Of a stretch of 64,000 bases of DNA, positions 4,079 through 62,073 are shown in pieces. The position numbers and the translations under genes are program-made. Within the stretch, counting starts at the first letter, position 1, and the number at the start of each line of letters is the position of its first letter. This DNA is from Hymenobacter plasmatis (GTDB lineage Bacteria > Bacteroidota > Bacteroidia > Cytophagales > Hymenobacteraceae): positions 124,001 to 188,000 of the forward strand of contig NZ_JAJFAW010000006.1 of the NCBI RefSeq assembly GCF_020711255.1, given 5' to 3'. The notes below the pieces were generated by a model that was not told the DNA's origin, ran no database searches, and saw only the letters and a list, made by a program, of their open reading frames with translations.

Positions 4079-4226
4079 TGTCATGCTGAGCCTGCGAAGC
4101 ATCTTATCGCCGATGAACAAATCGTTGAGCCGTGATAAGATGCTTCGCAGGCTCAGCATGACACGCGATTGGAGTATTAGTGACGCGGTAAAGATGCTTC
4201 GGCTGCGCTCAGCATGACGTTCTTTT
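4079..4226. repeat. TCATGCTGAGC-family repeat, copy B (three arms)
   Basis: The first two arms form a perfect dyad: GTCATGCTGAGCCTGCGAAG plus CATCTTATC, and its reverse complement ending at about 4152. A third arm in the reverse orientation (AAGATGCTTCGGCTGCGCTC then AGCATGACG) ends near 4219. The block lies upstream of the DUF4129 gene and downstream of the multispan protein gene ending at 4266. Confidence 0.88.
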
Positions 4227-21987: not shown

Positions 21988-22170
21988 GTCATGCTGAGCA
22001 TAGCGAAGCATCTCACCAGCGCCGTCTGTCATGCAGAGCGGAGCGAAGCATCTTATCAACGCGGAACGACTCAGGCGTGAGAAGATGCTTCGCTGTGCTC
22101 TGCATGACAGGCGAATGGAATTACTCTCGTGGTAGAGATGCTTCGCTCCGCTCGGCATGACGTCCTCTTT
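21988..22170. repeat. TCATGCTGAGC-family compound array, copy C (four arms)
   Basis: Four arms in about 180 bp: two forward (TCATGCTGAGCATAGCGAAG; TCATGCAGAGCGGAGCGAAG) and two reverse (AAGATGCTTCGCTGTGCTCT; AGAGATGCTTCGCTCCGCTC then GGCATGACG). This makes two nested dyads. It fills the whole space between scoA and the serine hydrolase gene and abuts the scoA stop codon. Confidence 0.9.
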
Positions 22171-35797: not shown

Positions 35798-35892
35798 GTC
35801 ATGCTGAGCTTGTCGAAGCATCTCTACCACGAGCGTAATTAAATTGCTTACCGGGAGAGATGCTTTAGCAAGCTCAGCATGACGTTCTTTTT
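35798..35892. repeat. TCATGCTGAGC-family inverted repeat, copy D
   Basis: The left arm is GTCATGCTGAGCTTGTCGAA plus GCATCTCTACC. The right arm in reverse is AGAGATGCTTTAGCAAGCTC plus AGCATGACG. The spacer contains GAGCGTAATT, which matches the AATTACTCTCG-type core of copy C in reverse. It lies between the C40 peptidase and HNH genes. Confidence 0.88.
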
Positions 35893-37703: not shown

Positions 37704-37800
37704 TCATGCTGAGCGCAGTTGAAGCATCTCGCTCGCATCGTTCAACGATTGAGTTACTACCACAGGCGAGATGCTTCGGCTGCGCTCAGCATGACCTTCT
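37704..37800. repeat. TCATGCTGAGC-family inverted repeat, copy E
   Basis: The left arm is TCATGCTGAGCGCAGTTGAA plus GCATCTCGC. The right arm in reverse is GCGAGATGCTTCGGCTGCGC plus TCAGCATGA. The spacer includes GAGTTACTACC. It lies between the desaturase terminator and the end of the convergent alpha/beta hydrolase gene. Confidence 0.88.
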
Positions 37801-58057: not shown

Positions 58058-59842
58058 CTAGGACTTCTTCTTGGCCTGGGCTTCGCGCTCCTGCGCGGCT
58101 TTCATGGCTTCGGCAATGCGCCCTTGGATGCCACCGGGCTTCTTGTCCTTGTTTTTGATTTTGTTGGCGTCGAGCTGCGCGCGGATTTTGGTGTCGTCCA
58201 CGAATGCTTTGGTGAGGGCTTGCTGGCCGAAGGTGATAACGTTCGACACAAAGTAGTACCAGGTGAGGCCGGCCGCAAAGCTGTTCAATACGAACAGGAA
58301 GATGATGGGCATCAGGTAACTGTAGGTCTTCATCGGGCCCTGCATGGCCGTGTTGGTCTGGTTGCTCTGCCAGGTCATGAGCAGGGTGGAGGCCGTCATC
58401 AGCAGCGTGAACATCGAAACGTGGTCGCCGTACCATTTCACGTAGAAAGGCAGCTTGATAAAGACGTCGTAGCTGCTCAAGTCCTTGGCCCACAGGAAGC
58501 TCTGCTGGCGCAGCTCAATGGCGTTGGGGAAGAACTGAAACATGGCGAACAGAATCGGCAGCGTGAGCAGCGTGGGCACGCAGCCGCTCAGGGGCGATAC
58601 GCCGAAGGTCTGGTAGAGCTTCATCGTCTCCTGCTGCACCTTGGTCTGGTCGTCGCCGTACTTGGCTTTCAGCTCATCGATTTCCGGCTTCAGCACTTTC
58701 ATGCGGGCTTGGCTCTCGTACGTTTTGTAGGTGAGCGGCCACGTCACGAGCTTAATCAGCAGCACCAGCAGCGCGATAATCAGGCCGTAGGAGCCAATGA
58801 ACTGCTCCAGGAAGTGGAACACCGGCAGCACCACAAAGCGGTTTACCCAGCGGAACAAGCCCCAGCCCAGGTACACGTTGCGGTCGAACTCCGGCGCTAC
58901 TTGCTTCAGCAGGTTGAAAGAGTTGGGGCCGAAGAAGAAGCGGTACTGGCCACGGCCCTGCTCCACCTCGGCCACCGGGATGGTGAGGGTGGTGCTCAGC
59001 GTTTTGATGCTCGTGGAGTCGGCGAGGTTCACGTCCGAATTGAACGCGCCGCCCGTGAAGGGCTGCTGGTCGGCGATGAGGCCGGCCACGAAGAAGTCGT
59101 GCTTGTGGGCCGCCCACTTTACCGGGCCGGCGGCCTTAATTTCCTCGGGCTTTTCGCTGGCTTCGGCCAGGGCGCCCTGGTCGCCGGCGGCCAGGTAATG
59201 GTTGATGGTGGTGTGGTTGCGGTTCTGCTTCAGGTCCTGCTCGGTCTGGCGCACCTGGTCCACAAAGGTGAAGGTGAGCGGCTCCTGGGCCACCGCCTGC
59301 TCCAGGCCATTCAGGCGCAGGTTGTAGGCCAGCTCAAAGCTGTTGGCGGGCAGGGTATAGGTCTGCACGATGCTGCCCCCGGCCACGGGTGCCGTGAAGG
59401 TGAGCACCGATGCACCCGCAGCCTGCGAAGGCACCGACTGGAACACCAGGTCCGAAAACTTCACAGTTTTACCGTCCACGGTGCGGAAGCGCGTGTCCAT
59501 GCGGGCGCTTTTGGCATCGAACAAGTCGAGCGGCTGGCCGAAGAACGTCTTGTACTTGTTCAGGCGCACGGCCGTCACGCGGCCGCCGCGGGTCGAAAAG
59601 GTGACGGTGAGGTTGGCATTGGTCAGGGTTACATCCTGGGCTGTGCCAGCCGTGGTGTCGAGGGCCGCTTCCGGTGCGATGGCCGGTACTGCCGCAGGAG
59701 CAGCGGCGGGGGCGGCGGCAGTAGTAGCCGGCGGCGTCTTACCTGTAGCTTTTTTGTCATCCTTCTTCGGGCTGAAAAAGAAGAGGTACACGAGGAGCAA
59801 GGCCGAAATAAGGAAAAGGCCGGTTGCTTGATTTTTGTCCAT
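58058..59842 (-). CDS. yidC: Membrane protein insertase YidC
   Basis: A 594-residue Gram-negative type YidC that inserts and folds inner-membrane proteins with or without SecYEG. An N-terminal membrane segment (about residues 8-22) is followed by an Ala/Pro-rich linker, a large periplasmic beta-sandwich domain (about 70-340) and the conserved five-span insertase core (about 350-560) with SYGLIIALLVLLIKLVTWPLTYK and SGCVPTLLTLPILFAMFQFFPNAI. The C-terminus is charged. pyrG normally precedes yidC in Bacteroidota; here a repeat-flanked GIY-YIG gene lies between them. Its -7 box is 23 nt upstream. Confidence 0.97.
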   Translation of the reverse strand: MDKNQATGLFLISALLLVYLFFFSPKKDDKKATGKTPPATTAAAPAAAPAAVPAIAPEAALDTTAGTAQDVTLTNANLTVTFSTRGGRVTAVRLNKYKTFFGQPLDLFDAKSARMDTRFRTVDGKTVKFSDLVFQSVPSQAAGASVLTFTAPVAGGSIVQTYTLPANSFELAYNLRLNGLEQAVAQEPLTFTFVDQVRQTEQDLKQNRNHTTINHYLAAGDQGALAEASEKPEEIKAAGPVKWAAHKHDFFVAGLIADQQPFTGGAFNSDVNLADSTSIKTLSTTLTIPVAEVEQGRGQYRFFFGPNSFNLLKQVAPEFDRNVYLGWGLFRWVNRFVVLPVFHFLEQFIGSYGLIIALLVLLIKLVTWPLTYKTYESQARMKVLKPEIDELKAKYGDDQTKVQQETMKLYQTFGVSPLSGCVPTLLTLPILFAMFQFFPNAIELRQQSFLWAKDLSSYDVFIKLPFYVKWYGDHVSMFTLLMTASTLLMTWQSNQTNTAMQGPMKTYSYLMPIIFLFVLNSFAAGLTWYYFVSNVITFGQQALTKAFVDDTKIRAQLDANKIKNKDKKPGGIQGRIAEAMKAAQEREAQAKKKS

Positions 59843-59884: not shown

Positions 59885-59966
59885 GCCTCGTCTGTTATAC
59901 TGGATGGGCCACCTGTCATTGCGAGGCCGCAGGCCGTGGCAATCCGTCCTTAGAAAGCGACCAGCC
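59885..59966 (+). repeat. Left terminal inverted repeat of the GIY-YIG cassette
   Basis: 82 bp. It runs from GCCTCGTCTGT at the outer end to GCGACCAGCC at the inner end, with CCACCTGTCATTGCGAG and GGCAATCCGTCCT between them. Confidence 0.85.
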
Positions 59967-59986
59967 CTGAAAAGTGATAACGCCTT

Positions 59987-60268
59987 TTATCCCGCTAGTT
60001 CTTTCCAAGCCGGATTTTCCGTGTTAATCAGCGCCAGCTTTTTAGCGCGAGAACCTGCTTTAAGCTGTTTCTCGCGAGCAATTGCCGCATTGATATCTGG
60101 ATACGTTTCGAAATACACCAGCTTTTGCACGTTGTATTGCTTGGTAAATCCCTCGTGTACGCCAGCTTTATGCTCGGCTACGCGCCGGGCTAAGTCGTTG
60201 GTAACGCCGATGTATAAGACTGAGTGATTCGCATTGGTGAGCAGGTAGACGTAATAAGTGCGCACCAT
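59987..60268 (-). CDS. GIY-YIG nuclease domain protein (UPF0213/YhbQ-like)
   Basis: A 93-residue single-domain protein. The GIY-YIG motif appears as YVY (residues 6-8) and YIG (19-21), followed by TNDLARRVAEHK with the catalytic Arg28 and His33. The metal-binding Glu66 lies in AAIAREKQLK, and the end motif NPAWKEL is typical of this subfamily. All catalytic residues are present, so it is probably an active nuclease or nickase; its target is unknown. It is flanked on both sides by inverted repeats of the CATTGCGAG family inside the conserved pyrG-yidC spacer. Confidence 0.93.
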   Translation of the reverse strand: MVRTYYVYLLTNANHSVLYIGVTNDLARRVAEHKAGVHEGFTKQYNVQKLVYFETYPDINAAIAREKQLKAGSRAKKLALINTENPAWKELAG

Positions 60269-60292
60269 ATTTTAAGCTTTGTCACGTCTTTA

Positions 60293-60380
60293 GGCTGGTC
60301 GCAGTGAGAGGACGGATTGCCGCGTTTCGCTGCGCTCCACTCGCAATGACAGGTGGGCGCAACGCATTGACAGACGAGGC
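60293..60380 (-). repeat. Right terminal inverted repeat of the GIY-YIG cassette
   Basis: 88 bp, inverted relative to the left repeat. The outer end GCCTCGTCTGT (minus strand) lies 5 bp from the pyrG stop codon; the inner end is GCGACCAGCC. Confidence 0.85.
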
Positions 60381-60385
60381 AGCGT

Positions 60386-62029
<1,644 letters not shown>

Positions 62030-62038
62030 TTCGGGAGA

Positions 62039-62046
62039 CAAAGGTA
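62039..62046 (-). promoter_or_regulatory. -7 promoter box TACCTTTG for pyrG
   Basis: Exact TACCTTTG on the minus strand, 9 nt before the pyrG ATG at 62029; supports that start over the longer TTG frame. Confidence 0.6.
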
Positions 62047-62073
62047 GGGCTAGTTTCAAGGCCAGAGGCGCGT

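Follow-up and report, generated by a model that had tools for sequence, protein, structure and literature searches.

What does a small nuclease gene do between two inverted repeats in a bacterial intergenic spacer? The question is raised by a locus of Hymenobacter plasmatis, lying in a 64-kb stretch (the window) of a 5.13-Mb genome (G000; G and L numbers identify genomes and loci), where a 93-residue GIY-YIG nuclease is encoded between inverted arms, in the spacer between two genes that, following the initial annotation, we take to be pyrG and yidC. Our answer, to which we assign a probability of roughly 0.74, is that the locus is a repetitive extragenic palindromic (REP) element with a small GIY-YIG nuclease between its inverted arms. 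This nuclease likely cuts or nicks such arms and would in that way spread gene-less copies of them through the genome.

The 93-residue open reading frame (ORF) matched PF01541 with an E-value of 6.8e-17, scoring 62 bits where the cut-off is 22.6, and residues G21, R29, H33, E66 and N85 were invariant in the alignments; Arg, Glu and Asn presumably form the catalytic set. The inverted arms aligned at 17 of 17 positions plus a further 49 nt at 73%, and exact TGTCATTGCGAG occurred twice in the window, once per arm. Each arm is built of TGTCATTGCGAG, a variable spacer, GGCAATC, CGTCCT, about 6 nt and GCGACCAGCC. At locus L058, the flanks gave a best inverted alignment score of 42, against 11-13 in three shuffles. 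A search of all of G000 with the arm pattern returned 62 matches and the reversed-pattern control none, so that the ORF, its family match, the arm alignment and these counts together bear out the initial annotation in placing a small GIY-YIG gene inside inverted arms.

The same annotation described the core of the arms as a dispersed repeat of many bacteria, and in G000 the arms are indeed dispersed. The 62 matches were covered by 40 loci, of which 37 resolved as an inverted pair running from TGTCATTGCGAG to CTCGCAATGACA (at most two mismatches per end): the window copy of 438 bp and 36 gene-less pairs of 152-252 bp. For L040, L044 and L049, no partner arm was found within the two-mismatch limit. 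The gene-less pairs have their arm ends in common with the window copy, and many their inner blocks too; in most of them, as judged by eye, the center is a GC-rich hairpin followed by T, in the position of the nuclease gene of the window copy. No target-site duplication was consistent among the 37 elements, the largest excess among many tests being 4 of 37, against an expectation of 0.6, for 3 nt located 3 nt beyond the ends, and the base adjoining the element was C or T at 98% of ends. The gene-less pairs may act as transcription terminators, L008 (1499-1670) containing one terminator-like match compared to 0.6 in shuffles.

Within a sample of 120 genomes of the genus, the nuclease subfamily (defined by at least 115 bits to the window protein) was present in 28, with one copy each at 63-100% identity; the next match scored 94 bits. 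An arm was located within 450 nt at all 28 loci, and at 26 of them arms with at most one mismatch stood inverted on both sides, while L077 and L083 had such an arm on the 3' side only. Three of the 28 (G095, G043, G084) carry a stop within the reading frame. By blastn of their flanks, which if diverged could mask shared places, the loci fall into about 11 places. Five of the 28 are in pyrG-yidC, L078 being assigned there by its pyrG end alone. L063 and L068 have common flanking genes and opposite cassette orientation, indicating inversion or independent insertion at one site. Among the matches listed from GTDB, the two nearest named relatives of the window nuclease were Hymenobacter L094 and L095 (78% and 71% identity).

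The initial annotation had also considered that the repeats might never be found near other GIY-YIG genes; such repeats do in fact adjoin them. Six further GIY-YIG paralogs of the genus (at most 60% identity) included four flanked by inverted repeats of different sequence (L033, L037, L086 and L087), perfect over 31 of 31 positions in L033; L035 had no inverted repeats and L032 lay at a contig end. Since four of the six bear other repeat types, the use of these paralogs as an arm-less negative control was dropped. Within G000, a second repeat family (GTCATGCTGAG/GTCATGCAGAG...GAAGCATC) forms pairs and singles at window positions 4080-4218, 21988-22161, 35798-35883 and 37770-37795, and a pattern covering it matched 278 times, with none for the reversed control. 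Another small GIY-YIG gene, L037 (G000:C9:58636-58860), is flanked by this second, commoner family, and at least two nuclease-repeat systems therefore coexist in G000. Two long GIY-YIG proteins of the same genome (L034, L036) had no motif within 500 nt.

The type of repeat present in a genome agreed with the type beside its nuclease. The block following GCAATC is clade-specific, being CGTCCT in G000 and its relatives and CGCACCnGAACG in G079, G081, G104 and G055. Genome-wide counts of CGTCCT/CGCACCnGAACG were 44/0 in G000, 48/0 in G067, 33/0 in G068, 42/0 in G007, 108/0 in G014, 65/0 in G037, 69/0 in G043 and 43/0 in G092, as opposed to 0/84 in G079, 0/51 in G081, 0/16 in G104 and 0/4 in G055, in each case the type adjoining that genome's own nuclease. 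The summed count was above zero in 26 of 28 carriers and 40 of 92 non-carriers, with medians of 15.5 and 0 respectively (Mann-Whitney p 1e-7, uncorrected for kinship).

The pyrG-yidC spacer, read in 31 genomes, is not fixed, consistent with the earlier impression that the cassette looks inserted there. The nuclease element occupies it in G000, G068, G007 and G067 (512-547 nt), and it is empty, at 84-85 nt, in G033 and G034. By eye, a gene-less repeat pair of the window type or another was seen in 19 genomes and no repeat in G113, G045, G020 and G006; G115 had a single arm, and in G042 yidC was outside the stretch read. The spacer is thus a hot spot, holding a nuclease element, a gene-less pair, a single arm or nothing in different genomes. 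In a test for a single origin of the insertion, the pyrG tree united G000, G068 and G007 in one supported clade and placed G067 with the non-carriers G091 and G008 (support 81/88), so that two gains or losses are needed on that tree, several of whose middle forks are weak. Empty G034 groups with G029 and G074 (100/99), both of which bear a gene-less pair. A comparable site was found in Azospirillum: in A. lipoferum 4B, the nuclease gene lies between sufB and sufC, flanked by two complete repeat pairs in a spacer of 617 nt, and the corresponding spacers of A. ramasamyi (91 nt), A. oryzae (87 nt) and Azospirillum sp. B510 (129 nt), whose sufB-sufC flanks align at 94.9-96.5% identity, contain neither the gene nor a GTCAT-type repeat.

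A GTDB scan with a 12-row alignment as query matched at least 569 related loci, of which the best 80 were analyzed. By their record titles, these 80 come from Bacteroidota, Pseudomonadota, Clostridia, Bifidobacterium, Cyanobacteria and Chloroflexi, as well as Planctomycetota, Elusimicrobiota, Ignavibacteriales, Fibrobacter, Zixiibacteriota and several candidate phyla. From the flanks of these loci a broad motif was drawn up, in which GTCAT-xyz is followed, at a distance of up to about 45 nt, by the reverse complement of xyz and ATC. Among the 78 loci that remain when the two from Hymenobacter are excluded, and which served to define it, the motif occurred within 300 nt of the gene in 67 and on both sides in 45; at a distance of 1200-1500 nt it was on both sides in 0 of 58. 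Flank repeats scoring at least 20 were inverted in 39 of 79 loci and direct in 40 of 79, with 3 of 70 for a distant inverted control, and at some loci the nuclease gene sits between two complete repeat pairs.

A viral collection provided a set independent of the motif definition. Its 35 loci with at least 41% identity, some of them near copies of each other, had 2.0 motifs/kb near the gene, in 13 loci, compared to 0.03/kb in coding DNA farther away, and the 1.8 kb of distant non-coding DNA held no motif. No motif was near the gene in the 22 GIY-YIG loci of this collection below 41% identity. It might be supposed that there is no functional link at all, and that repeats collect in intergenic DNA where small GIY-YIG genes happen to be. 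Away from the gene (more than 500 nt), the motif is indeed commoner in non-coding DNA of the 78 loci (0.56/kb) than in coding DNA (0.089/kb). However, its density within 300 nt, 4.71/kb, is 8 times that of other non-coding DNA at the same loci, its orientation within 100 nt is biased (35 plus versus 14 minus on the 5' side, 43 minus versus 18 plus on the 3' side), the repeat type matches the nuclease, the viral-collection genes below 41% identity have no motif nearby, and 30 loci of Y1 transposases have 0.11 motifs/kb. Coincidence is thus very unlikely, and we hardly credit it.

Named examples were consistent with an association between the nuclease and repeats of this build. Among 16 chosen loci (15 of 41 plasmid records and 1 of 11 phage records), the exact motif was within 400 nt in 10, in L091 only on the 3' side, from 199 nt. 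L327, L328 and L329 had inverted repeats alike in build but different in their letters, perfect over 29 nt in L328 and 31 nt in L329; neither motif nor like-built repeat was found at L325, L330 and the phage locus L331. In Sinorhizobium meliloti Ak57 (L323, 1110-1350), a truncated unit, which retains just the 3' part of the nuclease gene between repeats, is positioned upstream of the full unit and resembles a gene-less derivative that is still forming. A Neisseria gonorrhoeae record has the nuclease gene within an array that counts 11 GTCATTCCC-type motifs over 3.3 kb. These repeats are dRS3, because the Neisseriae CGTC-1 family equals dRS3 in PMC3733652. Two other arrangements were observed: on Planktothrix agardhii plasmid p1 (L088), nuclease and repeats lie between an MmeI-type restriction gene and the DISARM gene drmA, and Anaerolineaceae G122 has dense direct arrays of TTGCGA type, with 15 units in 1.3 kb at G122:C1:45762-47097 and other arrays besides.

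Genome-wide counts of three repeat types were made in 19 genomes to which named loci belong. The flanking type was present (flanking copies counted) in all 15 of those in which the nuclease bears one of the three, and in 12 of the 15 it was the commonest. A tree of 88 nucleases, built on 92 columns with motif-less loci left out and with 55 of 85 inner branches below 80 support, required 29 changes of repeat class, compared to a mean of 47.0 after shuffling, and none of 200 shuffles was as low. Class TGC, which contains 10 closely related Hymenobacter rows, required 8 changes versus 28.9 shuffled, and TTC 3 versus 7.8 (0 of 500 as low for each); YCTG and GCT were weakly clustered (41 of 500 each). 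The TTC group unites nucleases from Planctomycetota, Thermodesulfobacteriota, Gammaproteobacteria and Chloroflexota, and the nuclease-repeat pairing therefore crosses phyla.

Since REPINs elsewhere are thought to depend on RAYTs, the REP-associated Y1 transposases (PMC3116915), enzymes of this type might spread the repeats here, with the GIY-YIG gene as a bystander. A Y1_Tnp match was found in 83 of the 120 genus genomes, G000 itself having three such matches. However, no such match was detected in repeat-rich G014 (108 repeats, 95% complete), G057 (89), G046 (55), G031 (32) and G040 (21). At the 30 best-matching Y1 loci, none of which is among the three from G000, motif density within 300 nt was 0.11/kb with motifs on both sides at 0 of 30, as opposed to 4.08/kb and both sides at 23 of 29 for GIY-YIG loci L059-L087. 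Moreover, Di Nocera et al. found no tyrosine transposase gene flanked by CGTC repeats (PMC3733652). Like coincidence, then, a Y1/RAYT origin is very unlikely. Together with the roughly 11 places in the genus, the matching of types and the spread across phyla, this control supports the initial annotation in its proposal that a GIY-YIG nuclease takes the place of RAYT beside REP-like repeats.

A different possibility is that the GIY-YIG gene is itself a parasite of the homing type, landing in REP palindromes made by another agent and taking no part in their spread. GIY-YIG homing nucleases are mobile (PMC1564403), the A. lipoferum gene, flanked by two complete repeat pairs, looks as though it had been inserted among them, and some repeat-rich genomes lack the nuclease subfamily. 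Nevertheless, a mere lander would be unlikely to track repeat type across phyla, or to keep a single subfamily copy per carrier beside the genome's own type. In Hymenobacter there is mostly one arm per side, the gene replacing the center of the pair, and the sole other candidate tested as maker, the Y1 transposase, shows no association. We consider such a parasite, the main rival to our reading, unlikely, although it deserves to be taken seriously.

The predicted structure raises one further alternative. The AlphaFold2 model of the nuclease (mean pLDDT, predicted local distance difference test, 92) was nearest by Foldseek to UPF0213 1zg2 (E 1.1e-4, template-modeling (TM) score 0.60), followed by Slx1 (E 0.004-0.04, TM 0.5-0.6), a structure-specific nuclease of branched DNA. 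The protein could be a host-serving, Slx1-like enzyme that processes or removes REP hairpins, with the flanking repeats regulating or terminating the transcript. The modeled fold would suit such a role, as would the single subfamily copy per carrier genome and the GC-rich hairpin followed by T in gene-less copies, with the terminator-like match at L008 (one versus 0.6). Patchy carriage (28 of 120), some 11 places and empty sites look mobile rather than housekeeping, however, and the arms are the dispersed repeat itself, making a host function of this kind improbable.

The reading that fits best is that CGTC-type REPs and the GIY-YIG nuclease may work, by analogy, as REPINs do with RAYT, using an unrelated enzyme. 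The nuclease would recognize arms that form an extruded hairpin or cruciform, or that are single-stranded at the replication fork, and would cut near the tag; host repair might then join the pair, freed or copied, at another site. While its own gene seldom multiplies, the nuclease would move gene-less pairs in trans, the role proposed for RAYT with REPINs. We infer cutting and movement by the nuclease from the observed association, the matching of types, the differing places and the empty sites. The initial annotation had suggested a nuclease-driven mobile cassette; association, places and empty sites agree with this, and the nuclease as driver is our interpretation of them.

Several observations weigh against this reading. 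No movement within a lineage was caught in the genomes compared. The broad motif was defined on the loci in which it was counted, and there was none within 300 nt in 11 of the 78 loci, nor any near the gene in 22 of the 35 viral-collection loci with at least 41% identity. In G128, G130 and G137, the 3 exceptions among 15 genomes, another tested type outnumbers the nuclease-flanking one, and classes TCC and CCC are not clustered on the tree (199 and 128 of 500 shuffles as low). The Y1 control covers 30 loci, all from genomes other than G000, and the comparison of carriage with copy number is uncorrected for kinship. Non-carriers rich in repeats include G021 (112), G057 (89), G046 (55), G103 (35), G039 (34) and G031 (32), to which another pattern adds G058 (42), G020 (28) and G101 (27); these could be explained by a lost or diverged nuclease. 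Carriers G003 and G114 have no copy of either second-block type, and the counts for G071 and G028 are just 3 and 2; in these four, the genome's own second block is of a third kind, outside the two-type count. Lastly, the window arms, which have longer, variable middles, fold as DNA no better than shuffles (z -0.70 and +0.41), and we therefore do not claim a stable hairpin for the lone arm. Elsewhere, folding was strong for L092 of Azospirillum (z -4.1), weak for L118 (z -1.5), and no better than shuffles for L033 and L120.

The features of the locus are listed in Table 1. The gene-less copies and the relatives set the element ends at TGTCATTGCGAG (59914) and CTCGCAATGACA (60351). The initial annotation had described inverted repeats sharing ordered blocks; this holds for the arms between these ends, but not for the outermost block, GCCTCGTCTGT, which relatives do not conserve. 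In G067 and G068, the flank immediately after the arm on the yidC side is GACGAGGCC, and G068, G067 and G007 lack the outer block on the pyrG side; for these reasons we place this block outside the conserved element. Relative to G068 and G067, window positions 59885-59913 and 60352-60380 are extra G000 sequence between arms and conserved flanks, holding a degenerate TGTCAATGCG on one side, perhaps the remnant of an older arm. An NCBIfam search gave nothing above its cut-offs and PADLOC matches were weak (E 0.003 or worse), so a defense-system label is unsupported. An RNA-family identity for the region was rejected, the single match falling under the gathering score and being judged chance.

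Table 1. Features of the nuclease element and its surroundings, in window coordinates.
Feature	Position	Strand	Basis
Whole GIY-YIG/REP element, 438 bp, arm end to arm end	59914..60351	-	Gene-less pairs (n=36) and same site in relatives
Arm adjoining 3' end of nuclease gene: TGTCATTGCGAG-GCCGCAGGCC-GTGGCAATC, then CGTCCT...GCGACCAGCCC	59914..59967	+	
Inverted arm adjoining 5' end of nuclease gene; identical block order	60293..60351	-	
GIY-YIG nuclease, 93 aa	59987..60268	-	PF01541
Outer block GCCTCGTCTGT, outside conserved element; GACGAGGC is flank, yidC side	59885..59895	+	
Outer block GCCTCGTCTGT, inverted copy, pyrG side; absent there in G068, G067, G007	60370..60380	-	
yidC, low-side neighbor	58058..59842	-	ORF list
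pyrG, high-side neighbor	60386..62059	-	ORF list; relative in 119/120 genus genomes

Published work close to these findings includes a 2013 survey of CGTC-tagged REPs by Di Nocera et al. (PMC3733652). It describes such REPs in five phyla, with a CGTC or TGTC tag, a stem with complementary AT in positions 1-2 and mostly opposed pairs, their named hosts being Neisseria (dRS3), Rickettsia (RPE-4/RPE-6), A. lipoferum, S. meliloti and N. aromaticivorans. According to its authors, they show no association with transposase genes and 'apparently lack a dedicated transposase'. The repeats described here have the same tag and a stem beginning with the same complementary AT. The unpaired tail of the survey, most often fitting CCA, reads CCA in A. 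lipoferum and Aeromonas, and the window arms run on CCG; the stable stem of 8-9 bp and loop of 4-5 nt can be set beside the strong folding of Azospirillum L092 and the shuffle-like folding of the window arms. What departs from the survey is the GIY-YIG gene among such repeats in the four of its named hosts that were inspected (L092, L292, L323, L328) and in further phyla.

A candidate enzyme for these repeats would address the gap left by that survey (PMC3733652). We lean, with some reserve, toward the broader proposal that CGTC-tagged REPs throughout the bacteria have their missing partner in small free-standing GIY-YIG nucleases. Alongside RAYT with REPINs, this would be a second class of REP mobility, run without a transposase by a structure-specific nuclease of the repair type, and the source of Neisseria dRS3, of the RPEs of Rickettsia and of GTCAT repeats in Bacteroidota, Chloroflexota, Cyanobacteria and candidate phyla. 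If true, there would be a class of bacterial mobile DNA whose sole enzyme is a GIY-YIG nuclease, and a role for many genes labeled just 'GIY-YIG nuclease family protein', given the at least 569 related loci in GTDB.

UPF0213 proteins (PDB 1zg2, 1ywl), the closest solved sequences and best fold match, are deposited as hypothetical proteins. With GIY-YIG homing endonucleases (I-TevI, I-BmoI and phage genes; PMC1564403), the system shares a superfamily that occurs in mobile DNA. Unlike in those enzymes, 93 residues leave no space for a long DNA-binding extension, and the flanking repeat has dispersed gene-less copies, whereas viral-collection genes below 41% identity have no motif nearby. Like insertion sequences (IS) and miniature inverted-repeat transposable elements (MITEs), the element has terminal inverted repeats and gene-less derivatives of a coding element, but it has no consistent target-site duplication (37 elements) and no known transposase. 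Some IS families also make no target-site duplication.

The literature search returned no paper with both 'GIY-YIG' and 'repetitive extragenic palindromic', and the titles and abstracts surveyed gave no link between GIY-YIG and REPs, preprints and most subscription journals being outside the scope of both. In papers on CGTC-tagged REPs, 'GIY-YIG' was absent from PMC3733652 and PMC6006769, and 'GIY' from PMC12306157 and PMC5896051. CGTC REPs and the GIY-YIG superfamily are thus already known, and it is their pairing that was not found in the literature searched. A close parallel is the REPIN/RAYT system, or REPtron (PMC3116915), which likewise has short tagged palindromes in inverted pairs, many copies per genome, one copy of an enzyme gene bordered by its own type of repeat, and multiple systems per genome, each with its own repeat. 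In contrast, the enzyme here is a GIY-YIG protein of 90-odd residues (PF01541) rather than a Y1 HUH tyrosine transposase, and the tag is GTC (CGTC/TGTC) rather than GTAG. The system differs from RAYT/REPtron in enzyme and tag, and from IS and MITEs in having no consistent duplication and no known transposase.

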